A stretch of DNA of 64,000 nt from Ulva prolifera (taxonomy: Eukaryota; Chlorophyta; Ulvophyceae; Ulvales; Ulvaceae): NCBI GenBank assembly GCA_023078555.1, contig JALAAN010000010.1, positions 1,054,001 through 1,118,000 of the forward strand, read 5' to 3'. Each line of letters opens with the position of its first letter. The stretch's first letter is position 1. Of the stretch, positions 12,001 through 36,069 are shown in pieces. A model generated the notes under the pieces. The model saw only the letters and a list, made by a program, of their open reading frames with translations, made no database searches and had not been told where the DNA came from. Position numbers and translations under genes: made by a program.

Positions 12001-13899
12001 CCCACCTGTAGCCACATGATGCACGTCGGTATGCAATGCATGAATCCCCCGAGCACGGAGCCTCCGGCGTGCAGAGCTCGTGCGGCTGGTGTACGCCAAG
12101 CCGCTGCCGGAGAGCAGCAGCAAGTTCTGGGCGGCGGTGCGGTACGCGTACCCTGACGCGCTCACCGACGACGCGCAGTTCGAGCTCGCCGTCTCGAACC
12201 TCGCCTTCATCTACATGGCCGGCTACGAGACGACGGCCAACGCGATCACGCACACGCTCGCCGCGCTCGCCCTCGACCAGGACTCCCAGACGGTCGTCGC
12301 TGAGGTGCGCCGCGTGCTGTGTCCTGCGTGCTGTGCGCTGCGCGCGGTGCTATGCGATGGTGTGTGCGGAGTGATGGGCGCTGCAAGACCGGCGCCGCGC
12401 CACTGCGTGCTGCGTGCTGTGCGACATGGGCATGAGTCGCTGATTAGCGTGCGGCCCGGTCGCGTTGCGGCCCCCTCACGCTGCGGCGGCGCGGGTGCAG
12501 GAGCTGGAGAGCCTCGGGCTGCTGGCGTCGGCGGCGCAGCCCGAGCCGCGGCCGGTGTCTGCAGAGGACCTATCCAAAATGCCCTTCCTCGACGCCATCG
12601 TCCACGAGAGCCTCCGCCTCATGGCCCCCGCCCCCAACGGCGGCTTCCGTCTACTTGAGAAAGACACCAAGGTGCGACACATGCATGGGCTGCATGCGTG
12701 GCCGGTCTCGTCTGCGTCTGCCGTACCGCGGCGCCGGCGGCCGTATGCAGGCTCCGAGTTTCATGCTACATGAGTCGTGTGTGACGTCATGCCAGCCGGG
12801 TTGCACATGCATGGAATCTTTCCTCAGACACACTGTTGCGGGTTGGCCGCACTGTCTCACGGTACTCACCTGCATCTCATCCGCTGCTAGGGCCATCTGT
12901 CGGCCCCGTACCAGTGTCCGCAGGATGGGCGCAGATGTGCACTGCCGCCCCTCTCAGCGGCGCGATGCGCTGGCTCACCTGGGTGCATTCGGCCTTCTGC
13001 ACCCTTCTGCACCCTTATGCACCCTTCTGTTCTGTCAAGGCCTGTCCCTTTGAGAGCCCTTGTGGCCCGTCGCGGCCGCCTCTGGCTGGTGCTTTGTTTT
13101 TCGGCGGTGACGGCGGGCCGGGGGGCGTCCAGGTCAGTGTTGGGCAATCGGGGCAGGTCGCGTAGGACAGTCTTGAGTATTTGTGCATACTTCCCGGATG
13201 TCAGCGCTTGAAATGCTACAAGACGCGTCCGAACCAACACTGCAGGTTTGCGGGCTGCTGCTGCCGAAGGGCACCGAGATGATGGTGCCGACGTGGGCTC
13301 TGCACTACAACCGCGCCGTCTGGGGGGACGACGCCGCGCGGTGGCGCCCCGACCGGTGGCTGGAGGGCGGCTCCGTCGCCGCGGCGCGCAAGGACGCCGA
13401 TGGCAACCTCCGCTTCATGCCCTTCCTGGACGGCCCCTCCAACTGCATCGGCCAGCACCTCGCGCTGGTGTGCCCCCCCTAGCCACACCTCGCCTCGGGG
13501 GACCCGCCGACACGCAAAGCACCCGGCGTCACACATCTCCTTCATCTCCGTTTATGGTCACCGCTCACGAACATTGCTTTCCAAGTGCTTGAATCGAGCT
13601 GACATGTGGGTGTCCATTCCCTTCCTACTGCACATAAGAGGGAACTCTGCACATGTTCCACACATGCGCATCACGTCTGCCCACATCATCGATTTGCCGT
13701 GCTGCAGTCAGAGATGAAGATGGTCATCGCGACGCTGGTCAGCAGGCTCACCCTCACAATGGACGCCGCACGCATGGGCGCCATGCACACGGTCGACGAC
13801 TTTGTCGCGGCCGCCGTCACGAAGGTGACGCTGCAGCAGGAGCGGGCGACGTGGCTGCGCATGCGGCAGCGCGCGCCGGCGGCCTCGCCCGCCGCGTGA
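9055..13899 (+). CDS. Cytochrome P450, gene B (9 exons)
   Basis: Exons: 9055-9195, 9777-9971, 10715-10937, 11268-11368, 11817-11988, 12075-12304, 12501-12671, 13246-13467, 13708-13899, giving 548 residues. The ATG at 9055 opens a hydrophobic anchor followed by basic residues and the hinge KIPRAPGHVPLLGN. The motifs are canonical: AGYETT (326-331), ESLR (390-393), WRPDRW, and FLDGPSNCIGQ with the haem Cys at about 478. All intron phases (0,0,1,0,1,0,0,0) match genes A, C and D. Intron 1 seems to start GCGCGC, because the other genes place the junction after the same Lys codon. Gene B lies head-to-tail with A and convergent with LRR1. Decayed copies of its last exon occur at 20313 and 26808. 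It is a likely ER haem monooxygenase of unknown substrate, closer to A than to C and D. Confidence 0.9.
10358..10384. repeat. G27 mononucleotide tract
   Basis: A run of 27 G inside intron 2 of P450 B. Confidence 0.95.
11580..11671 (-). mobile_element. SINE-like fragment with an expanded C tract in intron 4 of P450 B
   Basis: Both flanks of the C21 run (11598-11618) match the SINE-like repeat in minus orientation: AACCACCTGGAA before it, then CCGTACGCAACTC and CTCCTGTGCTACGCGAGG after it. Other copies have only a short run of C at this point, so the tract looks like an expansion inside the element. Confidence 0.65.
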
Positions 13900-15126
13900 G
13901 CTGTGAGCGTCGCGCAGTGCCGCTTCGGACGGAGCGCTGCCGCATGCGCAGCGCAAAAGCAAGTACGCCGGCCACGCAGCAACACCCCACGTCGCCACGC
14001 TTTTGGCCGTGTCGCTGGGCCCACAGTGCCGGAGCTCTAGCATGGCCTATCCCAGACCTCAGTTGCACTCTGCGGCAGGGGGTAGGCACGGGTTCGTCCA
14101 TGTTGTTGTGTCGCCGACGCTGCATCTGAAGTTGACGGGATGCGATTTAAGTCTTACACCGCAGGTGCATTGTCTCACTGATACAGTTGCGACGTGGTGA
14201 GTAGGGCTGGGTGGCCAGAATGGTTTGGGATGGGCTGGTTATGTGACATGCACAGGACCCTCATGGTCACAGCACAGTATGGACTCCATTAGAACGGCCA
14301 TTTTTCAGTTCAATGCGGGGTGGCCCGCTGGAAAGATCAGGCTGTCTTGTTGCCGTTGAAAACAGTGGGAGAGATATTTCTTGCAAGCGTTTTTCATTGC
14401 TACACGGGCCTCGAGTGCAGCGCCTCCGGCGATGGCTGCATGGCTTGTTGTGAATTGCCTGCATTGAATCAAGTCTAGATCTGTTCTGCCAGAAAGGCAA
14501 GGATTTCCTAGTGCATGCCTTCAGACTCTGACGTTCGGGGCTTATCAGTCTTGATGTTGGACACGTGCCGTCTGGTTTCCGAAACACAAGGTCGTGTTGT
14601 GACGCTTCAAGGACGTTTCAGTTACAATTTTAGCCAACGCATCTACACTCAGTCGCAAATTTTGAGATTGGCATTCAGGTACAGAAAATAAGTGCTACAC
14701 AGCTGTGCTAAGCAACAGGCGTGACCAACGGTGAGTGTTCATGAATCTCGTCCCCAGGCTCATGCAGAGCATGAGCGCTACATCATCCCCTGTTGCCTCC
14801 CTCGGAGCCTGTTCACCGCAGGTGATACATGGCAACTTTGGTACTGACAAGTGAGCTGCACAGACTGTACTCAGCAGCCTCTCCAGCGCCGCTACGTGAT
14901 GTTTCATTTCCCACAACCTCCCTCCCGCCTCCTCCCAACGCCATGTGCATGCCAAGCGCTCGCTCCAACACGTGAGCCCATCAGCTCTCAAGGAGCAAGC
15001 GCCAGCCCAGATGTGGCCGTGGCCATCCATATACTTTGTAACCAATTGCATCCTCAGCTCAGTATACTCACGCAGCGCAGATAAATGAAGAGTATCCCAA
15101 CCCCCCAAAGACTCAGAACACATGGC
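13900..15126. other. Convergent intergenic region, P450 B / LRR1
   Basis: It holds the 3' flanks of P450 B (+) and LRR1 (-). Parts resemble the flank after the P450 relic at 20313-20500 (for example GCACTCTGCGGCAGG) and the sequence downstream of LRR2 (21270-21643). A minus-strand open frame at 14695-15123 resembles one downstream of LRR2 but looks like shared 3' flank rather than an exon. Confidence 0.5.
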
Positions 15127-18100
15127 CTATGTTAACCAGCTCATGTCCTCCCAGGTCGCCGCATTCGCGCTCACCACAGCCCTGCTGCAGCTGTCTGGCA
15201 TGCCGCAGGCACACGCGCCACAGCCACCCACCTCTGGGGCATCACCAGTCGTGGCAACACCGCCAGCAGTCGCTCCTCCGCTGTCACACTGCACACCCTC
15301 CTGCCCCCCGTAGCCACCACATCCTCCCCCGGGCAAGCCCGCTATCGCATCGCGCAGCCCACAGCTCCCCCGCAGGGCATGCATGAGGTTGTGTGCAAGA
15401 CCAACGCACAGAAGCTTCCACGAGCCGCGCAGCGCACACAGCACGCGCAGCGCACCGTCGTCGTCAATGGCGTTCCTGTCCAAGCTGACGATGCGCAGGG
15501 TAGTGAGCCGCGCGAGCGATGCGAGCCATTCGCAGCTCGCGCTGTGTGCTGTGCTGCGTGCTGCGCTGAGTCCGGCTCCGATGTTGTTGTCATCTAGGTC
15601 GAGTTCTTCAAGGTGCGGCATATGCATGGAGGCGATCATGCGTAGCTCCGATGTGGAGAGGTCGTTGCGCGGCAGGATCAGCCTGCGCAGCGCCGGAAAC
15701 GCAGCCGGTGCTTCGGGTGAGTTCTCCCGGAGGTCGCGCGGTGGAGAAACGCGGAGCCAGCGACACCGAGGGCCGGTGACGATGGGCGCCGGAGCGGCTT
15801 CCTGAACCACATGCTGACTCAGCGTGCAATGCATGCTGACCTTTGGAGCATTGAATAAGCAAGATGGCCACCGGCGACAATCGCCCGAGAGGCGGAGCAG
15901 CATCCACGTGTCGATTGGAGGGCAGAACAGAAGATATAGCCCGCTCCCCCAAGATTACTATACAGCACAGAGCACAGCACACCTGCGTGGGAGCTCCCCA
16001 TTGCGCCGCTGCAGCGGCACCACTGCACCCTGCACCCTCGATTGTCAGATCGTGCAGGTGAGGCAGAGCGGCGAGGACGCGTAGGAGGGCGCCTGCGGCC
16101 GGCTCGCCGCGGGAGTTCACGATGCGCACACCGCGCAGTTTGAGGCGCGTCAGCATGAGCAGCGAGGGGGTGTGATGCACCAGCTCATCCGCATTCACCT
16201 CGCAGTGTCTCCATGCGCGGGGTGACTGTGCTACGATCGAGATCGACTGAAGCCGCGTGTGCCGCCCAAGCCACGCCAGATGGATTGTCTTCACTTCACG
16301 CTTCGAAAAGAGCAGCGCGCGCACGCATGCAAGGTGCGGATAGGAGACCCGCGCCTCCGCCATTGCGGCCAACACATTTCCTGGCCTGAAGGCCAGGCTG
16401 GTGAGAGCTTTGCAGTGGCTGAGGTGCTCTACGATGCGCAGACTCTGCTGCTTGGTGGCAACGACCCCACTAAGATCAAGGTCCTCCAAGTGGCTGAGGT
16501 GCCACAACTCGGTGTCCCATACAAAGTCACCTGGCAGCAGCTCGTCCCAGCACAGCCAGGCAGCCTTGACGGTCAGATTGCGCAGGCGTGGGAAATGCGC
16601 CAGGTTCAGGGGTCCATGTTCCCTCTGGGCAGCTGGCCACGGCAGGTCGAGGGATGTCAGCGCAGTCTGCGTATGCATGGCCGCCACGAGCTCACCGGCG
16701 GACACGTCGGCCTCGGCAGGGCATATATCGACGGTGAGCGAGAGCCTCGCGAGGCGCAGCTGCGAGTTTGAGAGCGCCGCGGTGAGAGCTCGCGCTGCGG
16801 AGGGATCGAGGTAGATGTCGGAGACGATGAGGGTGCGGAGGAGCGGCGGGTGGGCACCCAGCGTGGCGGCAAGCCCCCGGCCGGGCCAGGGGCAGCGGCG
16901 GCGCCCGCGACTCGGCTGCCTGTCCCAGCCGGCCCAGAACTCAACGGAGGTGAGTGGGAACGCCGGGAGGGAGGCCGCGCAGAACAAAATCCGCGACGCA
17001 TCGTGGCAGGGCATCTCACCGAGGGCAAGGACTGCTCCATTGCTGGCAGTCGCGGTACCCTTGGCTGTGGCGTAGGAGGCTACGGCCTCGCGCTGGAGGG
17101 GGGTGGGGAGGCGGGAGATGACGGAGGGGGGGAGGGCGCCGATCGAGGGCAGCGTAGAGGTCGTGGGGGTGCATGCATGCGGCTTGAGGGAGCATCGCCT
17201 GCAGATGTGCTGGGTGTCACGCGGTCACGTGGGCGCTGTTGGTTGCGCTGGCGCTACTCTAGTGGCCTTGGGATAGGGCTCGGAAGTAGGGAGTCGGCGC
17301 GCGAAGGTTCGGTGTGACGAAATGGCATCTTCATGAACGACACCACAGCGTGCCATGCATGCACCTGCGTTAGCAGCAACTAGTGTGAACATCTAGACTG
17401 GGGTTCTGAGATGTTGGATTTTGAGAGAAGGCGTAAGATGGTTGAAGTTCTGAGCGAGAGCAACAAGGTGGCCTAGGCGTACAGACGGCGTGTCTGCGGC
17501 CAGGAGTGTAGAGGCATGGCGTGGCGTCACCGTACAGTGGCGAAGCATGTATGGTCCACGTGGTGCAGAAGTGCACTCCTCGAACCACACTTGCGACACG
17601 CAGCTCCTATCTTTTTCGTAACATGAGATATGTACCCATGCCGGTGCGACGTCAGAAAAAGGTAGTAAAGTGATATTGGGAGATGCCCATTCAGCAAGCA
17701 GTGCGGCCAACTTCGCACCTCCAGAACTTCAGGGCAGCTTGGTCCCTCATACTGGACATTTTCCTCAACATCCCAGTGCGGTCCGCCTGGCCCCGAGACA
17801 GCAGTGATGTCAGCCAAGACACACACGCACTCCGAGCTGCTTGTGGCGTGAGTGCGCTGCTGCGACGCCTTGAAGCCCCTGGCCATCGATGCCGCGACAC
17901 ACGAGATCGCCCTCGTATACGTGTTGTTATCTTGGAGGAAAGACGCTGGCTGCAAAAGATCAGCTGTGTCTTCGCACTGAACGCTGGATTCCGCTGTGGG
18001 CGACCAGCCGTAGCCAGAGCTCTGGCCAAGCCGATATCACAGAAAAGATCTAGCCAGCCCACACAGACTCCACACATAATTTCAGCTGCACTAGATGGGC

Positions 18101-18371
18101 GAGGGCTAGCCCAGTTGCAGGCAGAGGCTAGTTTGGAACGCACCCGCAGGGCGTGCACCGCGTCTTCGGCGTTGCAGTCACCCCAGCCGGTGACCGCAAG
18201 CCACCTTCTCATCACAGATGGGGCAAACGGTATGTCCACATCTTCTTCTATCTCTCGGAGAAGAGGAGAGAACCAGCGGCGTCTCCCCAGCTCGTAGGCC
18301 CTCGTGAACGCCAGCTCCTCGGCCTGCGCGGACTTGTCGGGACACGCCTCAGCGCCCACCGTGGTACCCAT
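15127..18371 (-). pseudogene. LRR1: Skp1/BTB-like plus LRR gene, frameshifted
   Basis: By analogy with LRR2 the exons are a 18144-18371, b 17719-17949, c 15983-17198 and d from about 15840 to 15127. Exons a and b (76 and 77 codons) encode the module DVDIPFAPSVMRRWLAV followed by SFLQD. Exon c opens with LPQAACMHPHDLYAAL and carries RI-type LRRs; exon d ends ATWEDMSWLT. Exon c is 1216 nt against 1212 in LRR2 and LRR3. An extra ATCG after the codons for LYAAL shifts the frame, so the N-terminal part and the LRR part are not collinear unless translation restarts at the ATG at 17014. The AG acceptor of exon d seen in LRR2 (GCATGCAG) is GCATGCAT here. It is either a young pseudogene or a shorter product. 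Confidence 0.6.
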
Positions 18372-19101
18372 ATTCAATATTATATTCTCCAAAAGTGATG
18401 TATGACATATGACGGGGACGGGGCAGATTTGCGACCTTTGGCCCTTCACGCCGAGGTGTCGCCATCAAGCGTGGGAAAGCATTCAGGACCTCATAACCCG
18501 TTCAGCCTCAGGAATACGGTGCCATGATACAGAGCAAGTGCGAAACTGCTTGATGAGGTTGTCCATACGGCACCGCACGTCGAAGCTTTGACGTTCCATC
18601 GGCTTTGCGGAACGAGCACCTGTTGCGCAGAGTCACGGACGCATGCATATCTCGAGATATGCGCGATAAGGCCCATTGCCAACACTGCGGTGCATGCGCA
18701 CACCCTTCAGCGATCAGGAAGTGCATCTGCCCGGTTGGGCAGGGTGATAGCCGTGGCCTTGCCATCCGCGGTAGCCATGTCATTGGCTGGCACACGTGTG
18801 CACGTGCTGCATGCACTTGGCCGGCCAGTGACATAGAGCGCCCCTTAAGCATTGCATGCTCAGGCCACTGACCACCAGCCATGTGGTGCCATGGCGTGGG
18901 TGCGTTGGACCGGGTTGGTGGTTGTGATTCCGCGCTGCGCGCTGAGTTCGCGGTGCCCGACTCACGGCCCTCATCCTTGCAACTCCCCACCCGCCATGGG
19001 GTGTGCACAACCGGAACGGGTTGTTGTACTGGTTCTGCTCGCTTCTTTCGCGGTGCTGCCCACTTCGCCGCATTTATCCTGGGAACACAGCCGGCTCCAG
19101 A

Positions 19102-19204
19102 GATTGGGTCGCTGCGCAGCATTTTCAGGGCTGCCACCCTAAAAATAGACCTGGGTATTCGGAATTGTTCTATGTGATCAGGCCTGATGACCCAACACTG
19201 GTGC
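19102..19204 (-). mobile_element. F1 element (about 103 bp) with empty site in the duplicate
   Basis: Inverted ends run from TTGGGTC to GACCCAACACTGG. It is bracketed by ACAGCCGGCTCCAGA at 19087-19101 and 19205-19219. The duplicate locus at 25867 has one copy of that word running straight into ATGTCGATGACATC. This is a clean filled/empty pair. Confidence 0.75.
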
Positions 19205-19695
19205 ACAGCCGGCTCCAGATGTGTCGATGACATCATTGTTCACGTGACATCATGCGCGCTTCTGCAACAGGAGCACTCGGACGTGCTGCGGTGTGACTCA
19301 GCGCCCGCGGCATTGCACCTCTGTGGGCCCTTGCGCCGCCATGAACCCTACTGCAGAACCCTACTGCAGAAGACACCTTGTATCCCTGGCCGAGAGCCAG
19401 CTGGCATGCGTGGTCGAAAACCCCACAACCTATGGCCGCATCATGTGACGGAACCTCACTGTATACATCTCCCAGGGAACCTCATCAGCCACGGCACATG
19501 CTGGGCCGGAAGATGCAACGGATTTCTCCTCCTCGTCCGACCTACGATTTGCTCAGCTTGTCTACAGTGTGTCGAGGCACAGTGGGTCGGCCGTGGTGGA
19601 AGAGCTCTCCTTGTCTGCAGCGGCGCCGCTGGGCGACGGCGGTGCATGCATGCTGGTCCCCGTCATCGCCCCGGCCTGTAGCTACAGGGGGTAGC

Positions 19696-19836
19696 CCTGT
19701 GAGTTGCGTACGGTCGCTTGAGGGGGGTTTCCAGGTGGTTTACGCCTTCGGCATATGTGGTCCCGTCAACTCGGAGTTATCAATGTCCAATAGGATACGG
19801 CTCAGTAAATTCGGATTTACTTTACTTTACTTTACA
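19696..19836 (+). mobile_element. SINE-like repeat with TTTAC tail
   Basis: It begins CCTGTGAGTTGCG, contains GGTTTCCAGGTGG and GTCCAATAGGATACGGC, and ends in TTTACTTTACTTTAC. It is missing at the matching site of the duplicate (around 26351). It is 5'-truncated relative to 56222-56460. Confidence 0.75.
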
Positions 19837-20170
19837 GAGGGCCCCCGTCGCCGATGCGCGCAGGGCGTGGGCGGGCACATCCGCTTGAGGCCCTTCATCA
19901 GCGACCAAACCAACTGCGGGGGTGCATGCATCGGCCAGCGCTGCGGCGCCACGACCACGCATCGCGCCTGCGCCCCTGTCGCCACACGACATCAGGCACG
20001 TAACACACAGAGCACCCGCCGTGCCGCTCGGCATCGCACGTGTCGTTCCATGCACAGCCACAACTTTGTACCTGCCACATGTATGACAGCGCCGGTACTG
20101 CTTTTTCCGCCCCTTGCCAGTAGCCACACACCAGGTCAACGTCTCCCTGTGGGCTTCTGCGCCTTGTCAC

Positions 20171-20276
20171 CAGTGTTCGGTCATCGGGCCCGATCACATA
20201 GAACAATTCCGAATATGCACATCTAATTTCGGGGTCGCAGCCCTGGAAATGCTGAAAAGCTACCCAACCCTGCTTC
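20171..20276 (+). mobile_element. F1 element
   Basis: CAGTGTTCGGTCATCGGGCC opens the copy and a GACCCAACAC-like end, here TACCCAACCCTGC, closes it. The internal GCAGCCCTGGAAATGCTG is shared with the copies at 43344, 43550 and 36968. Confidence 0.65.
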
Positions 20277-20312
20277 ACACACCCATCTGATCACGGCCTA
20301 GGCATGCCGCAG

Positions 20313-20500
20313 TAGGGGATGAAGACGGCCATCGCGTTGCTCAGCAGGCCTGCCGCCGCACTAGATGGCGCATGCATGGGTCATGCATACTGTTGCCGAC
20401 TTTGTCGTGGCGGCCATCGCGAAAGTGACGCTGCAGGAGGAGGGGTGTGGCGTAGCTGCGCATGCGGCAGAGCGCGCCGGCGGCCTCGGCCGCCGCGTGA
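20313..20500 (+). pseudogene. Relic of a P450 last exon (gene B type)
   Basis: It aligns with exon 9 of P450 B from the acceptor GCAG onward. Shared words include GATGAAGA, GCATGCGGCAG, CGCGCCGGCGGCCTC and the terminal CCGCGTGAGCTG. The frame is broken by indels and stops, and no upstream P450 exons accompany it. It lies 1.14 kb from the 3' end of LRR2, nearly the spacing between P450 B exon 9 and LRR1 (1.23 kb). It is the remains of a P450 tail carried along in the tandem duplication of LRR genes. Confidence 0.75.
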
Positions 20501-20636
20501 GCTGACATTGTGCACTTGCGCGGCCTGGCGCTGCCGCAGACTGTGGCGGAGTTCCGGAGTAGGCACGGCAGTCCTTCACCGCACTCTGCGGCAGGCTTTT
20601 GTCCAGAACCTTGGATTCGCAGATACACCGGGTGCA

Positions 20637-20960
20637 CGGGGTTGTGTGAAAGTTCGACGGCGGAACGTTTACGCAAGTCGCGCACAGCACGCGCAGCGTG
20701 CCGGCATCGCTGATGTCGTTCCGGGTCACGCTGACCGTGCACAGGGCAGTGAGCCGCGCAAGCGATGCGAGCCATGCACGTATCGTGCTGCGTGCTGCGC
20801 TGCGTGCTGTGCTGAGGCCGGACCCGATGGTGTCGTCGTCAAGGTCGAGGTGGTGAAGATGCGGCATATGCATGGAGGTGCATGTTTGCAGCTGGGGCGT
20901 TGAGAGGTGCTCGCGCGGCGGCAGGAACAGCATGTGCAGCGTTGGTGTAGAGGCTGGCAT
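20637..20960 (-). pseudogene. Relic of an LRR exon d
   Basis: The minus-strand translation contains HLSTPQLQ, SMHMPHLHHLDLDDDTIGSG, WLASLARLTAL and DISDAGTLRVLCA, matching exon d of LRR2 and LRR3. It is truncated at both ends with no exon c nearby. The duplicate locus diverges exactly where it begins (about 27196), so this marks a duplication breakpoint. Confidence 0.7.
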
Positions 20961-21643
20961 GTCAGACCTCGACCTACTGAGGTTGACTGCCTACCGATAC
21001 AACGGGAGCTGTACACTGAGGGCTGAAGTTGCGTATTAGCGTTATGATTACTGTGTCATAATAAAAGATCTGGTACTCTGTCAGACTTTGGACAGTTTGT
21101 AAACACAACAAGACAGATACGATCCTCTTCAGTTGGAAACACAATAGGTGCTGGCGTGGTTTCGCAGCACGCTTGCTGTGGAGAAATGTGCAGCCTACAA
21201 CGCTGAGGTTCGCCCGCCCAAAAGGCGCAGCGGCGGCAGCATGTCGTTCGGAGCGCAGACCAGATCTTAGATCATGACAGCATGCGCGCCGTCATCTCGT
21301 CTTGGCTCCCTCGGAGCTGGCCTGTCACAGGTGATGCAGGGCCTATGTGGCACACACAATGGAGTCACAAAGAATGTACACAACTGTCGCTCCAGCGCTT
21401 TTACACACTCCCTCACTTGCAACAACCTCCCTGCTGCCGCCGCCCGACGCCATGGGCATTTGCATGTGCATGTGCCGGGCGTGCAGGCGAACACGTGAGC
21501 TCCTCAGCTCTCAGGGAGCTACAACCAGCCCAGAAGTCGCCGTGGCCATGCATCAACTTTGTCGCCGGCCACACCCTCACCTCTGTATGCTCGCGCGGTG
21601 TAGACACACGAAGAACACCCCGTCATGCTTCGCCATGCCTGGC

Positions 21644-24600
21644 CTATGTCAGCCAGCGCATATCCTCCCACGTCGCGGCAGCTGCAACCACCCTAGCCTT
21701 TCTGCAGCTGTCTGGCATGCCACTGGCACACGCACCACAGCCACCCACTTCTGGACGGGCATCGCCTATCCTGGCATCGCCGCTAGCAGTCCCTCCTCCG
21801 CCGACGCACTGTGTGCACTCGTAGCCACCACTCCCTCCCCCGAGCAAGCCCGCAATCGCATCGCACAGCCCAGCGTTCCCCCGCACAGCATGCATGGGGT
21901 TGTGTGAAAGATCGACCGCGAAAAGCTTCGGCAAGCTGCGCAGCGCACACAGCACACGCAGCGATCCAGCGTCGTCGATGCCGTTTCTAGCCAGGCTGAC
22001 TGTCCAGAGGGCAGTGAGCCGCGCGAGCGATGCAAGCCATTTGCAGCTCACGCTGCTTGCTGTGCGACATTCTGCGCTGAGGCCGACACCGAGGTTGTTG
22101 TCAGCGAGGTCGAGTTCGTCAAGATTCGGCATATGCATGGAGGCGATCATGCGCAGCTGGGATGTGGAGAGGTGATTGTGCGGCAGAGTCAGCATGCGCA
22201 GCGCAGGAAACGCAGCCGGTGCCTCTGGTGCGCTTTCCTGGCACTCGCGCTGTGGCGGAACGCGGAGCCAGCGATGCTTAGGGTCGGCGATGATGGGCGC
22301 CAGAGTGGCTTCCTGCACCACACGCTGAATCAGCACGCACTGCATGCTGAAGTTTGGCTGTGCAAATCGGCCACCGGCAATTGGTGCCGAAACGGCAAAG
22401 CGGGAACCATATGTCGCTCGGGGCGCAGACAAGAACTGAAAGCATGCACCCTTAAGATCACAGCACAGCGCGCAGCACACCTGCATGGGCACGCCCCACT
22501 GCGCCGCTGAAGCGGCATCGCCACAGCCGGCACCCTCAACGGTCAGCTCCTTCAGGTGAGGCAGAGCGGCAAGGGCCTGCAGGAGGGCGCCTGCGGCCGG
22601 CTCGCCGCGGGAGTTCACGACGCGCACGCCGCGCAGTTCGAGGCGCGTCAGCATGAGCAGCGAGGGGGTGTGATGCGCCAGCTCATCCGCATTCACCTCG
22701 CAGTGTCTCCATGCGCGGGGTGACTGTGCTACGATCGAGATCGACCGAAGCCGCGTGTGCCGCCCAAGCCACGCCAGATGGATTGTCTTCGCATCACGCT
22801 TAGAATGCAGCAGCGCGCGCACGCATGCGAGGTTCGGATAGGCGACCCGCGCCTCCGCCATTGCGGCCAGCACATTTCCTGCCCTGAAGGCCAGGCTGGT
22901 GAGGGCTGTGCAGTGGCTGAGGTGCTCTACGATGCGCAGACTCTGCTGCTTGGTGGCAACGACCCCACTAAGATCAAGGTTCTCCAAGTGGCTGAGGTGC
23001 CACAACCCAGCGTCCCATACAAAGTCAGCTGGCAGCAGTTCGCCCCAGCATAGCCTGGAAGCCGTGACGGTCAGGTTGCGCAGGCGTGGGAAATGCGCGA
23101 GGTTCAGGGGTCCATGTTCCCTCTGGGCAGCTGGCCAGGGTAGGTCGAGGGATGTCAGCGCGGTCTGCGTATGCATGGCCGCCACAAGCTCACCGGCGGA
23201 CACGTCGGCCTCGGCAGGGCATATGTCGACGGTGAGCGAGAGCCTCGCGAGGCGCAGCTGCGAGTTTGAGAGCGCCGCGGTGAGAGCTCGCGCCCCGGAG
23301 GGATCGAGGTAGATGTCGGAGACGACGAGGGTGCGGAGGAGCGGCGGGTGGGCACGCAGCGTGGCGGCAAGCCCCCGGCCGGGCCAGGGGCAGCGGCCGC
23401 GCCCGCGGCGCGGCTGCCCATCCCAGCCACCGCAGAATACGACGGAGTTTAGGGGCAGCGCCGGGAGGGAGGCCGCGCAGAAGAGGATGCGGGCAGAGTC
23501 GTGGCAGGGCATCTCATCGAGGGACAGGACTCCCCCATTGGCGGCGGTCGCGGTGCGCTTATCTGTGGCGTAGGAGGCTACGGCCTCGCGCTGGAGGGGG
23601 TCGGGGAGGCGGGAGATGACGGAGGGGGGGAGGGCGCCGAGGGCGGCGTAGAGGTCGTGGGGGTGCATGCATGCGGCTTGAGGGAGCATCGCCTGCAGGT
23701 GCGCTTGGCTTCACGCGGGCGCTGTTGGTGGCATTGGTGCTGCTCAAGTGGCCGGAGGAGAGGGTCTGCGGGTGAGGGCTGGGCGCGTGAAGGTCCGATG
23801 TGCCGAAACGAGATGTCGATGAATGGCACCACAGCATGCCATGCATACACCATGCGTGGATGCGGACCAGTGAGAACACCTGCCCTGTGCTTCATGAGAT
23901 GATGCAGCTTTCGAGAACGCGTGAGATGGATGGGTGCGACCAGTTGGCCTACGCACAGCGAAAGCGGGCCCGCGACATTTTACAGTCAAGGCTTCTGAAC
24001 TACTGTGTATCGGCGAACAGTACAGTTTGCTCGCCCGCGCATACACTTCGCGTGCATCTCGCCCGGGAGTGTACATGACCGCTCGCGGGCGATCAGCCCA
24101 CGCGGCAGCAGATTGTATAATCCCTGTTCGAACGATTCCACCGATCACCGATCATCGGACACCGATCAAGCCACAGACGGTACCTGTCTCAGGCACGATT
24201 AGCATGCCGCTTCTGGTACTACTCCGAGGCTGAAAGCTGCCCCAAAGTGTACACTTCACGCTGTTGACCATCTGTGTACTACAGACTTTGTAGTGCATGA
24301 CGTGGCAGAACCGTAGAGTGGCTACATGGTGCATAAGTCAACACCCCACAGTCCGCGCTCGCGACAAGCAGCTCCTACCTTCGACGCAACTTGAGACGCT
24401 TGATCATGCCCATGTGATGTCTGATATCAATGTGTAATCTGATATCGGGAGATGTTCACGTAGCAATCAGCGTGGCCGAATCCGCACCTCCAAGGCTTCA
24501 GGGCAGCTTGGTCCGCCATGTCGAGTCTCGTCATCAAGAGCCCAGTGCGGTCCGCCTGGCTCCGAGACAGCAGTGATGTCAGCCATAGCACAGGCGCACT

Positions 24601-25160
24601 CCGAGCTGCTTGTGGCGTGAGTGGGCTGCCTCGACGCCTTGAAGCCCCTGGCCATCGCTGCCGCGACACACGAGATCGCCCTCGCATACGTGTCCTTATC
24701 TTGGAGGAACGACGCCGGCTGCAAAAGGTCAGCTCTGTCTTCGCAATGAACGCTGGATTCCAGTGTGGGCGAGCTGGCCGAGCTGCGGGCGACCAGCAGT
24801 AGCACCAGATCTGGCCAATCCGCTATCACTGAAGAGATCTAGTCAACCCACACAGATTCGACAGAGAAGTACAGCGGCACTCGATGGGCGAGGGCTAGCC
24901 CGGGTGCAGGTAGAGGCGGGTCTGGGACGCACCCGCAGGGCGTGCACCGCGTCTTCGGCGTTGCAGTCACCCCAGCCGGTGACCGCAAGCCACCTACTCA
25001 TCACAGATGGGGCAAACGGTATGTCCACATCTTCTTCTATCTCTCGGAGAAGAGGAGAGAACCAGCGGCGTCTGCCCAGCTCGTAGGCCCTCGTGAACGC
25101 CAGCTCCTCCGCCTGCGTGGACTTGCCGGGACACGCCTCTGCGCCCACCGCGGTACCCAT
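21644..25160 (-). CDS. LRR2: Skp1/BTB-like plus LRR protein
   Basis: Proposed exons: a 24933-25160, b 24488-24718, c 22481-23692, d 21644-22339, all phase 0, about 788 residues. Exons a and b read as one domain: acidic DVDIPFAPSVMSRWLAV, then DAVHALR joined to PASFLQDKDTYARAI. The helix order resembles the second half of a Skp1/BTB fold; this is my inference. Exon c gives RI-type LRRs with units such as LPHLKELTVEGAG. Exon d has the clearest repeats (LPHNHLSTSQLRMIASMHM, LDELDLADNNLG, VDLSHNPMHAV) and ends ATWEDMRWLT. Donors are GTGCGN or GTGTGC and acceptors CAG. The c-d intron (141 nt) is open in frame, so 21644-23689 also reads as one 681-codon frame; retention would add 47 residues. The likely role is as a protein-binding adaptor, perhaps in ubiquitin ligation. 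Confidence 0.72.
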
Positions 25161-26542
25161 ATTCAATATTGTATTCTCCAAAACTGATGTATGACATATG
25201 ACGGGGCAGATTTGCGACCTTTGGCCCTTCACGCCGAGGTGTCGCCATCAAGCGTGGGAAAGCATTCAGGACCTCATAACTCGTTCAGCCTCAGGAATAC
25301 GGTGCCATGATACAGAGCAAGTGCGTAAAGGCTTGATCATGTGGTCCATACGGCACCGCACGTCGAAGCGGTGACGCTCCATCGGCTTTGCGGAACGAGC
25401 ACCTGTTGCGCAGAGTCACGGACGCATGCATATCTCGAGATATGCGCGATCAGGCCCACTGCCAACACTGCGGTGCATGCGCACACCCTTCAGCGATCAG
25501 GAAGTGCATCAGCCCGGTTGGACAGGGTGATAGCCGTGGCCTTGCCATCCGCGGTAGCCATGTTATTGCGACACACAATTGGCCGGCCGGTGACACTGAG
25601 CGCCTCATAAGCAATTGCATGCTCAGGCCACTCACCACCAGCCATGTGGCGCCATGGTGTGGCTGCGTTGGACCGAGTTGGTGGCTGCGATTCTGCGCTG
25701 CGCGCTGAGTTCGCGGTGCCCGACTCGCGGCCCTCATCTTTGTAATTAGGAGTGATCTCTCCACCGGCGGGCACGCCATCGGGTGTGCACAGCCAGCTTG
25801 GGTTTGTACTTCATCTGCTTGCTTCTTTCGCGGTGCTGCCCGCCTCGCCGCATTCATCCTTGCATTACAGCCGGCTCCAGAGATGTCGATGACATCAGTG
25901 TTCGCATGTCACCATGTGCGCTCTGCAACAGGCGCACTCGGACGTGCTGCGGTGTCACTCAGTGCCCGCGACATTGCCATCGCTGAAGGCCTTTGCGCCG
26001 CCATGAACCCTACTGCAGAACCCTACTGCAGAAGACACCTCGTATCCGTGGCCGAGAGCCAGCTGGCATGCATGGTCCAAAACCCCACAACCTATGGCCG
26101 CATCATGTGAAGGAACCTCACTGTATACATCTCCCAGGGAACATCGTCAGCCACGGCACGTGCTGGGCCGGAAGATGCAGCGGATTTCTCCTCCTCGTCC
26201 GACCTACGATCTACTCAGCACATCTACAGTGTGTCGAGGCACAGTGGGTCGGCCGTGGTGGAAGAGCTCTCCTTGTCTGCAGGGGCGCCGCTGGGCGACC
26301 CCAGTGCATGCTGGTCCCCGCCATCGCCCCTGCCTGTAGCTAGAGGGGTCGCTACAGAGGGCCCCCGTCGCCGATGCGCGCAGGGCGTGGCCGGGCACAT
26401 CCGCTTCAGGCCCTTCATCAGCGGCCAAACCAACTGCGGGGATGCATGCACTGGCCAGCGCTGCGGCGCCCCGACCACGCATCGCGCCTGCGCCCCTGTC
26501 GCCACACGCCATCAGGAACGTAACACACACACAGCGCCCGTG

Positions 26543-26602
26543 GGTGTGCGGTTCCTCTGGTTGTTGCTCGCCGTGCTACCTGCCTTGATTGTTGTGTCCT
26601 TG
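26543..26602 (+). mobile_element. F2 element with empty site in the duplicate
   Basis: It ends at TCCTTG followed by TAACACACAACACCC. A near-copy of that flank, starting TAACACACACACAGCGCCC, lies at 26521-26542. The duplicate (about 20001-20025) has a single TAACACACAGAGCACCC without the element. It is therefore an insertion younger than the segmental duplication, with about 21 bp of target duplicated. Confidence 0.7.
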
Positions 26603-26807
26603 TAACACACAACACCCGCCGTGCCGCCCGGCGTCGCACGTGTCGTTCCATGCACACCCAAAACTTTGTACCTGCCACATGTATGGCAGTACCGATACTG
26701 CTTTTCCGGCCCTAGGCCTTGCCAGTAGCCACAAACCAGGCAGAGTTCTTGCTTTGGGCCTCTGCGCCTTCACACACCCACCTGATTACGGCGCAGGGAT
26801 GCCGCAG

Positions 26808-26976
26808 TAGGGGATGAAGACCGTCATCGCGTCAGCAGGCCTGCCGTCTCACTAGATGACGCATGCATGGGCGTCGTGTCCACTGCTGGCCAATGCGACA
26901 GTGGCGCTGCAGGAGGAGGGGTGTGGCGCAGCCGCGCATGCGGCAGCGCGCGCCGGCGGCCTCCGCCGCCGCGTGA
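26808..26976 (+). pseudogene. Second relic of a P450 last exon
   Basis: It is the same sequence as 20313-20500 with further small deletions: GATGAAGACCGTCATCGCG, then GCGCATGCGGCAGCGCGCG and CCGCGTGAGCTG. It lies 0.85 kb from the 3' end of LRR3, so it keeps the same order relative to the LRR gene as P450 B does to LRR1. Confidence 0.75.
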
Positions 26977-27830
26977 GCTGACATTGTGCACTTGCGAGTT
27001 CTGACGCTGCTGCTTGAGGAGCTGTTCCTTGAGGAGCTGGAGGAGCTGGCATTGAGGAGCTGGCATGGGGCGCTTTCGTGTTCTGACGCTGCTGCAGACT
27101 GTGGCGGACTTGTGGAGCAGGCACGGGAGTCACACACCGCGCTGTGCGGCAGGCGTTCGTGCAGAACCTTGGATCGGAAGATACATCGGGTGCACATGTC
27201 GTCATGGAGAGTTTCGCTGCTGCCGTGTGCGAGCTGTGCGTGCCTCAGTGGCCGTCCGATGACGCGCCTACGACGACGGCGCCGTTTGTGGAATGAGGCA
27301 GCGTCACGACGATCGCCGGGCAATGTTGCCTCACGTTCGTAGACATTGCAACTCAGAGAGTTGGGATTGGTTCTTCAGATCCGGGCAATGTGGCCACATA
27401 CCTCAAAGAGCAAATGTACATGTTCAAATACAGAATATAGATGCACTTACAGAGTGATGAGAGGGACTCAGACATACGCAGGGATGAGATGGGATTGAGG
27501 CTAATTGGCCTGTGCTGTACACATGGCACCAGTGTTCACTACAGAGTCTCTAGACCATACCAGAAGCGTAGCTTACAATTTGTTGAGAGACAGCCCTGCA
27601 ATTGGAGCCGTAGCCGACTGCCACGTAGATAGCAAAACCAGACGGTGCATCCACTGTGTACTGCCTCATGTGCTACGGCCTCCCTGCTGTCTGCTCTCAA
27701 CGAGCACAGATTCCGCCATGGCTAGCCACAAAGCTTGATGGCCGGCGGCATCCTCAGCTCTGAATCCACACGCGGCGCGGAGAAACGCAGACCACCCCGT
27801 CGTGCTGCACTACGATTCACCACGCTTGGC

Positions 27831-30800
27831 TTAGGACAGCCAGCTCATGTCGTCCCAGGTGGCGGCAGTCGCTGTCACCATAGCTTCGAATTCGCGGTCG
27901 CAGTCTGGTGTGCCGATTACACTACAGCTACCCTCGTGAGAGGAGCCGTCACAGCTCCCCCCCGTCTCAGAATCGCTGCCATCACCCATTCCTTCGTCGG
28001 CCCACTCCTCACCGCCCTCCCCGCCGCAGCACCTGCATGCTGCCTGCAAATGATGGATTGCATCAAACAGCTTGCAGCTCTCCGGTAGAGCCTGGATGGG
28101 GTTGTGTGAGAGATCAACGTTGAACAGCTCCCGCAAGCCGCACAGCGCGCACAGCACGCGCAGCGCGCCCGCGTCATCGATGTCGTTCCGGGCCAAACTG
28201 ACTGTTCTCAGGGCAGTGAGCCGCACGAGCGATGCGAACCACTCCCTGCAGGCGCTGTGTGCTGTGCTGCGTGGCGCGCTGAGCTTGGCTCCGACGTTGT
28301 TGTCAGCGAGGTCGAGGTGTTCGAGGTTCGGCATGCGCAAGGAGGCGATCGTGCGGAGCTGGGATGTCGACAGGTGGTTGTGCGGCAGAGTCAGCCTGGT
28401 CAGCGCTGGAAATACCGCCGGTGTTCGTGTGCCGTCCTGGCACTCGCTCGGGGGAGCCTCAAAAGTGCGGAGCCAGCGGCGCTGGCCTTCGGTTGCAACC
28501 GCCGCTGGCACGGCCTCCTGCACCACATGCTGACTCAGCATACGCAGCATCAGCAGGTACGGAGACGTTTACAGCCGTCTCCTTTGCAGGTCGATTCCCT
28601 CCGATGGCTGAAACACCACCGGAGGGAGCCGGCCGGAAGGAGGACCGGCGACCGCACAGCACGCGGCTCGCAGAGTTGCACCCAGAGCACGCCCCGCCAT
28701 GTTCACAGCGCAGCAAAGCAGGCAGCACACCTGCGTGGGAGCGCCCCATTGGGCTGCTGACTCAGCATCATCACCGCCGGCGCCCTCGATTGTCAGCCGC
28801 TGCAGGCGAGGTAGAGACGCAAGGGCGCGCAGGAGGGCGCCTGCGGCCGGCTCGCCGCGGGAGTTCACGGTGCGCAGGCCGTGCAGTCCGAGGGTCGTCA
28901 GCGTGAGCAGCGAGGGGAGGTGCCGCGCGAGCTCCTCGACGTCCACCTGGCACTGCCTCCACACGCGGGCTGTTTCTGCTGTAATCATGACGGATTGCAC
29001 GCCCGTGTGCTGGCCCAGCCACGCCAGAGGTATCGAACTCACTTCATACCTCGACTTGAGCAGCACACACACGGCTGACAGGTTGGGGTAAACCACCCGC
29101 GCATCCGCCATCGCGTCCAGCACATTGCATGTCCGGAGGATCAGGCGACTCAGGGCTGTGCAGTGGCGTAGGTGCGCTACGATGCGCTGACTCTGTTCCT
29201 CGGTGTCGGTGACCTGCTGCAGGTCAAGCTGCTTCAAGTGGCTGAGGTGCGACAGCCCCGACTCCCACACGCAGTCCCCCGGCCGCATGTCACCCCAGCA
29301 TGGCCGGGCGTTCTGGAGGCTCAGGGTGCGCAGGCGGGGGAAATGCGACAGGTGGAGCGCGCCCCGCGCCCGCTGAGCAGCCGGCCATGGCAGGTCGAGG
29401 GACGTCAGCGCGGTCTGCGCATGCATGGCCGCCACGAGCTCACCGGCGCAGACGTCGGCCTCGTCGCGACCTATGTCGACGTCGAGCGCGAGCAGTGCGA
29501 GGCGCAGGTGCGAGTCGGAGAGCGCCGCGGCGAGAGCTCGCGCCCCTGAGGGGTCGAGGTAGACATCAGAGACGACGAGGGTGCGGAGGGCCGCGGGGTG
29601 GGCGCGCAGCGTGGCGGCGAGGCCCCGGCCGGGCCAGGGGCAGCGGCGGCGCCCGCGGCACGGCTGCCCGTCCCAGCCGGCGCAGAAAATCACAGAGGCC
29701 AGGGGCAGCGTCGGGAGGGAGGCCGCGCAGATGAGGATGCGGGCCGAGTCGTAGCAGGGCATCTCGAAGAGGGCGATGATCGGCCCGGGCGCAACATCCG
29801 CGCGATCCCTGGATGTGGCGTAGGAGGAAACAGCCTCGCGTTGGAGGGGGCAGGGGAGGCGGGCTATGACGGAGAAGGGCAGGGCGCCGAGGGCGGCGTA
29901 GAGGTCGTGGGGGTGCATGCATGCGGCTTGCGGGAGCATGGCCTGCAGGTGCACGAGGTGTCATGCGTGCTGTGAGTTCGTTGAGTTGGTGATCCTCAAG
30001 CGGCCTGCGGAGAGGTGTTGGTTGTATGGAGGGCATCCAAGATGAGCCGTTGGGTCAGGATGAAAGCTTCCAGAAGAGCACCACAGCGCGCCATGCATGG
30101 ACCCGGAGTAGCAGTGTCAGCCATGCATGCACTCTTGCGTGGGCTGTGCTGGACTCAGCTGGACATCTGACAGGGCAGTTATGAACGACCTGTCTCGAGC
30201 AAAAGGAAAAATCAGCTTGGCGCTCTGTGCGACAACTGCTCACTGGCCTATACCGGTGGCACATCCATGGAACGAGTGTTGAAGCAGCTGGAGCATGGCA
30301 AGACAGTGGAGTGGCTACATGGTCCACTATATCCACTCCCGACGAATCGCGCTTGCGGCGAGCGAGTCCTGTGTGGGCTGTGCTTAATCTAGCTCATGCA
30401 GATCTCAAGTGGATCGGGAGATGCTTACGTAGCAAAAAAATCCGCCTTCCTCACACCTCGAGGACTTCAAGGCAGCTTGGTCCCCCGTTTGGATCGATTG
30501 GCTCGTCGTCGAGAGCCCAGAGCGATCCGCCTGCCTCCGACACAGCCGTGACATCAGCCTCTGTGCACACGCAATTCGAGCTGCTTGGCGCGTCAGTGCG
30601 CTGCTGCTGCCATTCCTGGAAGCCTGCAGCCATCGATGCCGCGATAGACGATGCCGCCTTCGCGTACGTGTGCTTGTCTTGGAGGAATGCCGCCGCCTGC
30701 TCACACATGGGCCTGATTCTGATTTCTGTTTCTTTGTAGCGGTTGCAAGTTCACGCTGAGCTATGCGTGGGCACAAGCCGTAGAGGAAGTGTCGACGCGC

Positions 30801-31132
30801 CCGCTATGCCAAGAACATGCACGACACAGAATCTACGGAAACTCGTGACAGCGTCAAAGTTTCATGCAGATGTAGGCAGTGTTTCGTTTGGATCGCACCC
30901 GCAGGGCTGTCACCGCGTCGTTCACGTTGCAGACACGAGTGCCCCCCATCGCGACGGCAAACCACGTCCGCATCACAGATGGTGGAAGAGGCACGTCCAC
31001 GTCGGCTTTCATATCCAGCAGCAGAGGCGAGTGCCAGTGTTCCCACCCAGGGTCATAGGCCCGCGAGAACAGCTGCTCGGTCTCCGGCGCGGCGAGGCCT
31101 GGCCACGCCTGAGGGCCTGCCGCAGCTGCCAT
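27831..31132 (-). CDS. LRR3: Skp1/BTB-like plus LRR protein
   Basis: Proposed exons: a 30899-31132 (78 codons), b 30457-30696 (80 codons), c 28731-29942 (404 codons, the same length as LRR2), d from about 28560 to 27831. Exon a carries DVDVPLPPSVMRTWFAV and ends ALR; exon b opens AAAFLQDKHTYAKAASSI; together they form the Skp1/BTB-like module. Exon c starts after CAG with AMLPQAACMHPHDLYAALG and contains RI-type LRRs. Exon d has LPHNHLSTSQLRTIASLRM and LEHLDLADNNVG and ends ATWDDMSWLS, with an acidic insert near EEWADEGMGDGSDSE. No disrupting change is seen in the four exons. The exact acceptor of exon d is unclear, as no AG in the right phase stands next to the LSQHVVQEA start. Confidence 0.68.
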
Positions 31133-32800: not shown

Positions 32801-35800
32801 TTACAACCAGCTCATGTCCTCCCAGGTGGCCACAAGTGTCATCACCTCAGCTTCGTCGCAGCTGCCTGTTGTGCCAATCTCCACGTGTGCGTCATGGCCG
32901 CCCCCATTCAGGGAGCTGTTGCAAGCCCCCCCAATGCCGGCTCTGCCGGTCGCACTGCCACCTCTGTCGCCACACAGTCCATCGCGGCGCCCGGGGTCTG
33001 CCCGGCATTCTCCCCCCCCCTGCAAAAGCGCGATCGCACCGCGCAGTCGGCAGCGCTCCGGCAGAGCGGGCACAGGGTTGTGTGAAAGATCGACGGTCTC
33101 CAGGTGCTGCAGGCCGCGCAGCCCACACAGCACGCGCAGCGCGCCAGTGTCGTCGATGTCGTTCCGGGCCACGCTGACCGTGCGCAGGCACGTGAGTGTC
33201 CCGACCGACGCGAGCCATGCGTAGCTCGCGCTGTGCGCTGTGCTGCGTGCTGCGCTGAGACCGGCTCCGATGTTGTTGTCGGCGAGGTCGAGGAGGGTAA
33301 GATGCGGCATATTCATGGACGCGATCATGCGCAGCTGAAATACGGTGAGGTGGTTGCACGGCAGGTGCAGCGCGCGCAGCGCAGGAAACCCTGCGGCCGG
33401 CGGGTCTGGTGAGCCTGTCTGCCGCTGCACTGGTGACACCTCATGCATGCGGAGCCATCGGCCCTGGGCTTCGGTGGTGACGGGGGCTGGTGCGGCTTCT
33501 TCCTGCACCACATGCTGACTCAGCACACGCACAGCTTCTCATGCAGGGGTAAAGCGGGCGAGCGCCTGCTTCGTACCTTCACCTGCAGAAGCAAGCCGCC
33601 GCGAAGTGGGACTCGCACCGCACGTCGCACGCAGGGCAGATCCCAGTGCATGCTCCACCGTGACGACAGTGCCGCACAGAGCGCAGCACACCTGCTTGGG
33701 AGCGCCCCATTGCGCCGCCGCAGCAGCGCCGCCGCAGCCGGCGCCCTCGAGGATCAGCTCCTCCAGGCGAGGCAGAGTGGCGAGGGCGCGCAGGAGGGCG
33801 CCTGCGGCCGGCTCGCCGCGGGAGTTCACGACGCGTATGCCGCGCAGTTCGAGGCGCGTCAGCGTGAGCAGCGCGGGGAGGTGCCGCGCCAGCTCCTCCA
33901 CAACCACCTGGCCGTGCCTCCACGCCCGGACAGTGTCTGTTGCAAATGAGGCCTCTGCTACAAACGAGATCGACCGCATCTGCGTGTTCCAGCGCAGCCA
34001 GGCCAGCGGAACCGCCCTCGCTTCAACCTTCGTTGCGTGTACAACACTCACGCATGAGAGGTTTGGGTACGCAGCCTGTGAGTCCGCCATTGCGACGAGC
34101 ACGTTGCCGGTGACAACCTTCAGGCTGGTCAGGGCTGTGCAGTGGCGTAGGTGCGCTACAATGCGCCGCCTCATTTCCGGGGTGACAGTAGCCCGCGATA
34201 GGTCAAGGTGCTCCAAGTGGCTGAGGTGCGGCAGTCCAGCGTCCCAGACATGGTCTCCCGGCCGAAGCTCAAGCCAGCATTGCCTGGCACGCCGGACGGT
34301 CAGGGTGCGCAGCAGTGGGAATCGAGACAGGTCCAGGGTTCCGCGTACCATAGGGCCAAATGGCCAGGACAGATCGAGGGACGTCAGTGCAGTTTGCGTT
34401 TGCATGGCCGCCACCAGCTGCCCGGCGCAGAGTTCGGCATCGGCGCCGCACACGTCGACATCAAGCGAGAGGCATGCAAGGCGCAGCTGCGACATTGAGA
34501 GCGCCAAGGCGAGAGCACGCGCGCTCATGGGTCCCAGAAAGACCTGGGAGAGTGTGAGCACGCGCAGGGTGGCCGAGTGCGCACACAGCGTGGCGGCAGT
34601 TTCATGGCCGGGTCGCCAGCAAAGGTCGCCGGCGCAGTCACGACAGGGGCAGTGGCCGCGCCCGAGGCGCTGTGGGGCATCGCGACGGACATGGATCGAC
34701 ACGCAGCTGAGGGGCAGCCCCTTGAGCGAAGCCGCGCAGAAGAGGATCCGGGCCGCATCGTAGCAGGTTGCATCGTGGAGCGCCAGAATCGCTCCTCCTC
34801 TGGAACCCCCAGACCCAGCGTCTGTGACGTGGGAACGTACGGCCTCGCGCTGGAGGGGGTCGGGGAGGCGGGAGATGACGGAGGGGGGGAGGGCGCCGAG
34901 GGCAGCGTAGAGGTCGTGGGGGTGCATGCATGCGGCTTGCGGGAGCATCGCCTGCAGGCGCACGCGGTGTCATATGGCAGCACTCGAATCGATTCAGTCG
35001 ATAGATCTATCTTCGAAGTGCATGTGCACCGGGAGGGCTGCTCAGCCGGAGCGCTAGCGAGTGCAGCTGACGTATTGCAACGACCGCCCACCACGGCGGG
35101 CCATGCATGCCAGTGGGCACTGAAGCAGCACACGCCACGCAGTCTGGGGAGGGGCCGGCCGGCGGACACGGATGCGTTCTGAGACAGGATAATCTGAGAC
35201 ACTCCGTTCCGAGAGTAGGCAAGCGTGGCATGGCGATCCGGGTGCGAACGAGGACCATGTTGATGATGATATCGATGCGACGTAGTCAGAGTCTGGGACT
35301 CAGACTGACTGTCAGACAGTGTGGCAGACAGGGCGCACCTCGAGGACTTCAGCACCGCTGGATCCCCCACGTTGCACCCCGTCTGAGAGAGCCCAGCGCG
35401 TTCCGCCTGGCTCCGACACAGCAGTGAAATCGGCCCTCACGCACACACAGTCTGAGGTGCGTGTCCCGTGAGTGCGCTGCTGCGTTGCCTGCAGCTGGAA
35501 GCGTTTGGCCATCATTGCCGCGACAGACGAGATCAAACTTGCATACGTCGCCGTATCTTGAAGGAACGACGCCAGCTATACACACATTGGCCTCATTATT
35601 GACTGTTTCCTGCGTTTTTTTTGTTGCGTTCCACTGCGGTAGCAGAGTGCCAGCTGAGCTGCCAGCTGGTTCGAATGCAGGCACAACGCGATCAGCAATA
35701 GCGGGGAAGTCGCTATCGTTTCCAAATCAGACATTACACAGACATCAGTATGTCTTTCGAGGCGTAGAGGGCTGCTGCAGACTGAGGCAGTCCTTTGGTC

Positions 35801-36069
35801 GGACGCACCCGCAGGACCTCGACAGCTTCGGCAGCGCTGCATTCACCTCCAGCGGCGACCGCACGCCACTTCGCGATCACAGATGGCGCAACCTGTACAC
35901 ATACGTTTTCTTGCATCGTCTGCAGCAGAGGAGAGTACAGGCGTGCCTCGTCCACGGCGTCACAGAAGGCCACCTGCAGCTGCTCAGCTCGCTGCTGGTT
36001 CTCCTGCGTGGCGTTGCCTGGCCACGCCTGGAGGCCTGCCGCAGAACCCAGACTCAGTTGGAAATTCAT
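32801..36069 (-). CDS. LRR4: Skp1/BTB-like plus LRR protein
   Basis: Proposed exons: a 35809-36069 (87 codons, starting MNFQLSLGSAAG; an in-frame ATG at 36093 is possible), b 35339-35575 (79 codons), c 33692-34951 (420 codons), d from about 33540 to 32801. Exon a reads SPLLQTMQENVCVQVAPSV then AVEVLR; exon b opens LASFLQDTATYASLI. Exon c starts AMLPQAACMHPHDLYAALG, has a Cys-rich insert near CPCRDCAGDLCW, and RI-type LRRs. Exon d has LPCNHLTVFQLRMIASMNM, LTLLDLADNNIGAG and VDLSHNPVPAL and ends ATWEDMSWL. Donors GTGCGT, GTGCGC and GTGTGC are clear; the exon d acceptor is not. No frame break is seen in exons a-c. It is more diverged from LRR1-LRR3 than they are from one another. Confidence 0.67.

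Follow-up and report, generated by a model that had tools for sequence, protein, structure and literature searches.

Organization of the locus

We analysed a window of 64,000 nucleotides of the Ulva prolifera genome (C10:1054001-1118000; the whole genome is 88.9 Mb in 44 contigs). Its GC content is 61% and its genes have introns. Between P450 B and P450 C lie five LRR-like genes, the fifth being more diverged than the rest; all are on the minus strand, and the 3' end of the minus-strand LRR gene faces the 3' end of P450 B (Table 1). A further gene, P450 E, is found on the plus strand to the right of the window (stretch L035 1280-4679); its last exon is nearest to those of C and D (79 and 77%), and three other E exons are nearest to B (77-80%).

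The last exon of P450 B, exon 9, is preceded by ...GCTGCAG. Nine main conserved blocks are common to P450 C and D, and it is from this count of blocks, rather than from a full gene model, that the last intron of P450 B is reasonably called “intron 8”. Hereafter unit 1 stands for LRR1 with X1, unit 2 for LRR2 and X2 with relic 2, and unit 3 for LRR3 with relic 3, X being DNA upstream of the LRR genes and the relics being decayed copies of exon 9.

Table 1. Features of the P450-LRR locus, in window coordinates.
Feature	Position	Strand	Remarks
P450 A, P450 B		+	
P450 C, P450 D		-	
Living last exon (exon 9) of P450 B, stop codon included	13708..13899	+	open frame; homologous exons in P450 A, C and D
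Spacer s1, from exon 9 to LRR1 homology	13904..14759	none	sole match in genome search is itself
LRR1 (approximate)	15127..18371	-	stop at 15127; N-terminal reading frame from about 18371
X1, upstream of LRR1	19205..20165	none	common only to unit 2 in genome searches, save the dispersed repeat 19691-19832
Dispersed element, about 100 bases	20166..20272	none	inserted at the X1-relic 2 junction; absent at the X2-relic 3 junction
Relic 2 segment	20273..20637	+	40 upstream bases common with relic 3, decayed exon 20313-20500, tail to 20637
LRR gene fragment abutting the relic 2 tail	20638..20941 (protein match about 20626-20972)	-	72-77% identical to LRR1-4, close to none
Dispersed genome repeat in spacer s2	20945..21131	none	about 187 bases
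LRR2 (approximate)	21644..25160	-	
X2, upstream of LRR2	25867..26770	none	pieces 84-95% identical to X1
Relic 3 segment	26768..27195	+	decayed exon 26808-26976 and tail
Spacer s3, from relic 3 tail to LRR3 homology	27196..27697	none	no other match in genome search
LRR3 (approximate)	27831..31132	-	
LRR4 (approximate)	32801..36069	-	no exon-9 relic found beside the gene

The LRR genes

Pfam support for the LRR genes is marginal: LRR2 scores 26.4 bits against LRR_8, for a cut-off of 27. No NB-ARC match was listed by Pfam in the scanned ORFs, and the N-terminal frame of LRR1 gave a sub-threshold match to the NACHT N-terminal NNH7 (E 0.032). By eye, and without transcript, LRR1-4 were read as having a common GT-AG intron. 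The TAA and TGA of LRR3 and LRR4 fall inside this presumed intron, and the idea that these two genes were killed by stop codons was therefore rejected.

With the intron left out, dS is 0.53 for LRR1-LRR3, 0.51 for LRR2-LRR3 and 0.24 for LRR1-LRR2 (0.54, 0.55 and 0.24 respectively when it is counted in); LRR4, with a dS of 0.52-0.56, is not separated from LRR3. The dN/dS among LRR1-4, again without the intron, is 0.47-0.63, which suggests weak constraint. One LRR relative beyond the locus lies on contig C2 (L034 4068-6200) and displays 40-44% protein identity. This C2 copy served as outgroup for a FastTree tree of 2018 columns. On all columns LRR1-3 form a clade excluding LRR4 (support 0.996). 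When the alignment is cut in thirds, the first and the last give LRR1-3 (0.925 and 0.992) and the middle one groups LRR3 with LRR4 (0.805). The outgroup patterns are 76 for LRR1+3, 49 for LRR1+4 and 42 for 3+4; with LRR2 instead of LRR1 they are 78, 53 and 52.

Two decayed copies of exon 9

Two decayed copies of exon 9 of P450 B, at 20313-20500 (relic 2) and 26808-26976 (relic 3), lie on the same strand as the exon. Relic 2 matches exon 9 over 20318-20500 (79.8% over 188 columns, 160 bits) and relic 3 in two pieces, 26901-26976 (85.5%, 85 bits) and 26813-26873 (72%, 40 bits). As a control for chance we used 500 sequences of equal length drawn from a first-order Markov model; their best scores had a mean of 28.3 bits and a maximum of 50.9. 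The 160- and 85-bit matches beat all 500 random sequences, which the 40-bit piece alone does not, and chance is excluded for both relics. Thus the copies that an earlier note on this DNA had described, in the same orientation as the exon, are genuine; the distances it gave to the LRR 3' ends are also right, the exon, relic 2 and relic 3 ending 1228, 1144 and 855 bases from the LRR ORF ends (15127, 21644 and 27831).

An nhmmer profile of the exon, built from six copies that include both relics, gave E = 4.9e-55 for relic 2 and E = 6.3e-44 for relic 3; once these and the living exons of P450 A-D are set apart, the best remaining match in the window had an E of 0.011. Searched with the profile, neither LRR4 nor LRR5 has an exon-9 relic beside it. 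A genome DNA search with 20273-20640, which older copies could escape, returned 4 matches at 3 places, i.e. the query, relic 3 and the exon (3/3 candidates scored). The profile was also run on three stretches of ~10 kb. The left flank gave nothing, and no relic was counted in the C2 stretch or in the right flank, weak matches there being taken as non-relics (E 0.0085 in the C2 stretch; E 0.073 in the right flank, after P450 E); the right flank also returned the last exon of P450 E (E 4.7e-28).

When the window was compared with itself, exon 9 was the sole part of the P450 gene to match next to LRR2 and LRR3, i.e. each relic is an isolated P450 exon lacking all other parts of the gene. Exon 8 was sought before the relics in this comparison, and an A-run after them in the alignment; neither was found. 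A processed (retro) copy is rejected, exon 9 being alone, with no joined exons and no A-run behind it.

The relics are unable to code. Their first codon is in both cases the stop TAG, and both have the same 1-base insertion at 13845 (exon coordinate). Overlapping deletions start in both from 13732, of 3 bases in relic 2 and 7 bases in relic 3, for total deletions of 3+2 and 7+17 bases respectively. The last 48 aligned exon columns (13858-13905, about 20459-20506 and 26935-26982) hold 4 differences from B per relic; the permutation p values are 0.018 and 0.003, for a region picked after looking.

Relic 2 and relic 3 have one ancestor

The exon tree has the form ((relic 2, relic 3), B), with supports of 1.000 and 0.994, a relic stem of 0.233 and a B branch of about 0. 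Over 166 gap-free columns, 23 changes relative to B are common to both relics, relic 2 has 5 changes of its own and relic 3 has 12, and three states occur in 2 columns. Polarised by the majority state in A, C and D, 12 of the 23 common changes are derived in the relics, 4 seemingly derived in B and 7 undecided. The K2P distance between the relics is 0.125 (0.07-0.19). Their sister grouping and common changes reject two independent duplications of the P450 tail.

The similarity between the relics extends past the exon on both sides. The 40 bases just upstream are equal at 35/40 positions (9, 8, 8 and 10 per 10-base block), and the junction with X is identical at X1-relic 2 and X2-relic 3 once the 107-base insert of unit 1 is set aside. 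We checked for independent lesions and for differing upstream junctions; both lesions and junction are instead common to the two relics. Because of the common stop, insertion and junction, the best reading is that relic 3 is a copy of an already dead relic, rather than the exon copied anew. The common lesions could also have been spread by conversion between the two relics, which would weaken the conclusion that the exon was dead before it was copied. Even with such conversion, the common junction would still require a copied X-relic segment.

X, spacers and inserted repeats

X was found in units 1 and 2 only, by genome searches with two pieces from which the repeat was left out (2/2 candidates scored for each). 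X proper was sought after LRR3 and not found (pieces p 0.33-0.87), the higher score obtained there with the long piece coming from the dispersed element at about 19104-19204. Two copies of this ~100-base element in opposite orientation (about 19105-19204 and 20166-20272) bracket X1, and neither is in unit 2; relatives of the element lie at 36965-37052, 43341-43440 and 43548-43651, with a partial one near 31749-31966. The other repeat in X1, of about 157 bases (19691-19832), has at least 38 genome copies (90-93%) among the 44 matches listed, for the best 40 of 1606 candidates.

The spacers s1, s2 and s3 are mutually unrelated when compared. Genome searches with s1 and s3 gave no other match, save that the s3 query also hit the relic tail. 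Spacer s2 is made of the LRR fragment, the dispersed repeat and about 140 bases. The fragment is 58-59% identical to LRR2 at the protein level, with a further 21-residue piece at 62%; it sits at the seam of units 1 and 2, and the two-step history proposed below leaves it unexplained.

LRR-X-relic as the probable unit of the second duplication

The collinearity of units 1 and 2 starts at 14760/21272, continues across the LRR gene, the DNA upstream of it and X, and extends into the relic as far as 20637/27195. Non-genic DNA included and dispersed repeats left out, they differ at 781 of 5400 aligned columns. A copied unit LRR-X-relic (14760-20637, 21272-27195) that does not include the living exon is thus well supported.

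In the three-way comparison, the first two windows (relic and tail) have units 2 and 3 equal at 40+50 sites, units 1 and 2 at 14+19 and units 1 and 3 at 5+4. In every window from column 1250 to column 5749 (LRR and upstream DNA), the sites where units 1 and 2 agree outnumber those where 2 and 3 do. On these site counts unit 2 is a mosaic, its relic and tail side going with unit 3 and its LRR and upstream side with unit 1, as unequal exchange would give.

Units 1 and 2 are not equally similar throughout, their identity being 65-72% at 14760-15160 and 17360-17760 and 85-97% at 17760-20160. A tract of 85-97% is also seen at 16160-16960. The CUSUM range, computed on 2534 non-coding columns, is 114, whereas 5000 permutations never exceeded 46. 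Because this range exceeds that of all permutations, later gene conversion between units 1 and 2 is likely (LRR1/LRR2 tract); local constraint in promoters may be an alternative cause of the unevenness. A single age for the second duplication does not fit without gene conversion, because the dS of LRR1-LRR2 stands against the 0.125 between the relics and a non-coding divergence of units 1 and 2 that varies from 0.046 to 0.43.

A proposed first duplication and its limits

From the order and orientation of the parts, the agreement of ages and the LRR1-3 tree, we infer that the first event was a duplication of exon 9-LRR-X. The distance between exon and relics is 0.25 (95% 0.17-0.34), nearly all of it on the relic lineage. 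As the B branch is about 0, this equals about 0.5 in pairwise terms, an estimated age that agrees with the dS of LRR1-LRR3 and of LRR2-LRR3.

The earlier note had the duplicated segment beginning in intron 8. This start is not borne out: the living exon resembles the relics only from the splice acceptor onward (from 13700 by BLAST), and in the 20-100 bases before exon and relics no intron-8 similarity rises above shuffled controls (eight tests, p 0.08-0.75). In simulations a flank of this age is detected in 47-75% of cases at 40 bases and in 62-95% at 100 bases. Since a 100-base flank would mostly be detectable, the breakpoint is probably close to the exon start. On the 3' side the similarity is weak (eight tests, p 0.008-0.16; the best are 0.008 for relic 2 with 130 bases and 0.012 for relic 3 with 200 bases), and suggests that the copied piece reached beyond the exon.

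Neither does the collinearity that the note expected, from intron 8 through the LRR gene, hold between exon and LRR, where 13904-14759 matches nothing else in the genome search and only the weak 3'-flank signal is seen beside the exon. The first copied segment (intron 8 to X) cannot be recognised over its full length, power being limited at this age: intron 8, s1 and X after LRR3 are unrecognisable, and it is for this reason that the first event is deduced rather than observed.

Proposed history and alternatives

These data are probably best accounted for by a tandem array built in two steps, exon 9-LRR-X being duplicated and LRR-X-relic then copied. In the first step, a tandem duplication would have started at the 3' end of the final P450 intron, taken in exon 9 together with the LRR gene, and stopped at X, a point lying upstream of the promoter of that gene; the product would be exon 9-LRR-X followed by relic-LRR. 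The orphan exon, with no gene in front, would then have decayed. In the second step, which is well supported, unequal exchange copied LRR-X-relic again, giving exon 9-LRR1-X1, then relic 2-LRR2-X2, then relic 3-LRR3. Further exchange probably maintained the similarity of some stretches of units 1 and 2 afterwards, and the array also received dispersed repeats.

The earlier note had proposed that an unequal duplication of a P450 tail with an LRR gene took place twice. The collinearity of units 1 and 2 upholds that the relics travel with the LRR genes by segmental duplication, but the second event is best read as the copying of a dead relic and not of a P450 tail. That mechanism was right in kind, most likely wrong in its second step and presumptive in its first.

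It is rather unlikely that a fragment of exon 9 was inserted alone at the end of X (e.g. as filler at a break), between LRR1 and a pre-existing LRR3, and that LRR-X-relic was duplicated later, the relic lying beside LRR3 by chance. Such an insertion would agree with a similarity between living exon and relics that is essentially the exon alone, and with the failure to find X proper after LRR3. LRR4 and LRR5, beside which no exon-9 relic was found, also imply that LRR genes were duplicated without the P450 part or lost it. The orientation, order and spacing nevertheless fit a tandem duplication, the relic age agrees with that of LRR1-LRR3 and LRR1-3 form a clade on all columns; the weak 3'-flank similarity moreover suggests a copy reaching beyond the exon, and flanks are hard to see at this age.

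That the relics are alternative last exons of P450 B, or functional 3' elements, is hardly credible. They retain the acceptor CAG, and their last 48 columns are little changed from B. But the stop in the first codon is followed by a frameshifting insertion and by deletions, splicing would need to cross the antisense LRR1 gene, and the 48-column segment is itself not conserved between P450 A and B (18/48 differ). The relics are most likely inert and mark an old breakpoint.

That a processed or captured exon was inserted twice independently is barely conceivable, for although the start of the similarity at the splice acceptor speaks for it, the common stop, insertion, substitutions and X junction indicate one ancestor, no exon 8 was found before the relics and the relic 2/3 similarity passes the exon on both sides; two independent captures are refuted unless later conversion homogenised exon, tail and junction.

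Relics as debris of a tandem array

The term detritus exon was reportedly defined by Nelson et al. in 2004. P450 clusters with pseudogenes and detritus exons are mentioned in passages of PMC4964396 and PMC4365919. The relics are debris of this kind in a tandem array, i.e. ordinary remains of tandem duplication. Like the detritus exons of P450 clusters, they are isolated P450 exons that duplication left behind, standing in tandem with P450 genes to which they are related. Unlike them, the exon is here a passenger of the LRR family, and was seemingly recopied when already dead.

LRR genes are known for birth-and-death evolution, in which unequal exchange and gene conversion reshape their tandem arrays. 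PMC10463633 describes tandem arrays strewn with pseudogenes. The locus resembles such arrays by its tandem copies, its mosaic middle unit and its conversion-like tracts, and differs from typical LRR arrays in that its LRR genes fall just below the Pfam cut-offs and have no listed NB-ARC match.

The copied unit is without a P450 gene, so the second duplication added LRR genes and not P450 genes; the link that the earlier note drew between the spread of the two families is lost for the same reason. It is quite improbable that the dead P450 exon joined the homology mediating exchange in the LRR array, the debris of one family thereby aiding the expansion of another. Because the copied unit has no P450 gene, caution is needed: the adjacency of two expanding families need not mean that they expanded jointly. 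Passenger debris can nevertheless order events in a gene array, the lesions common to the relics suggesting here that a dead exon was copied.
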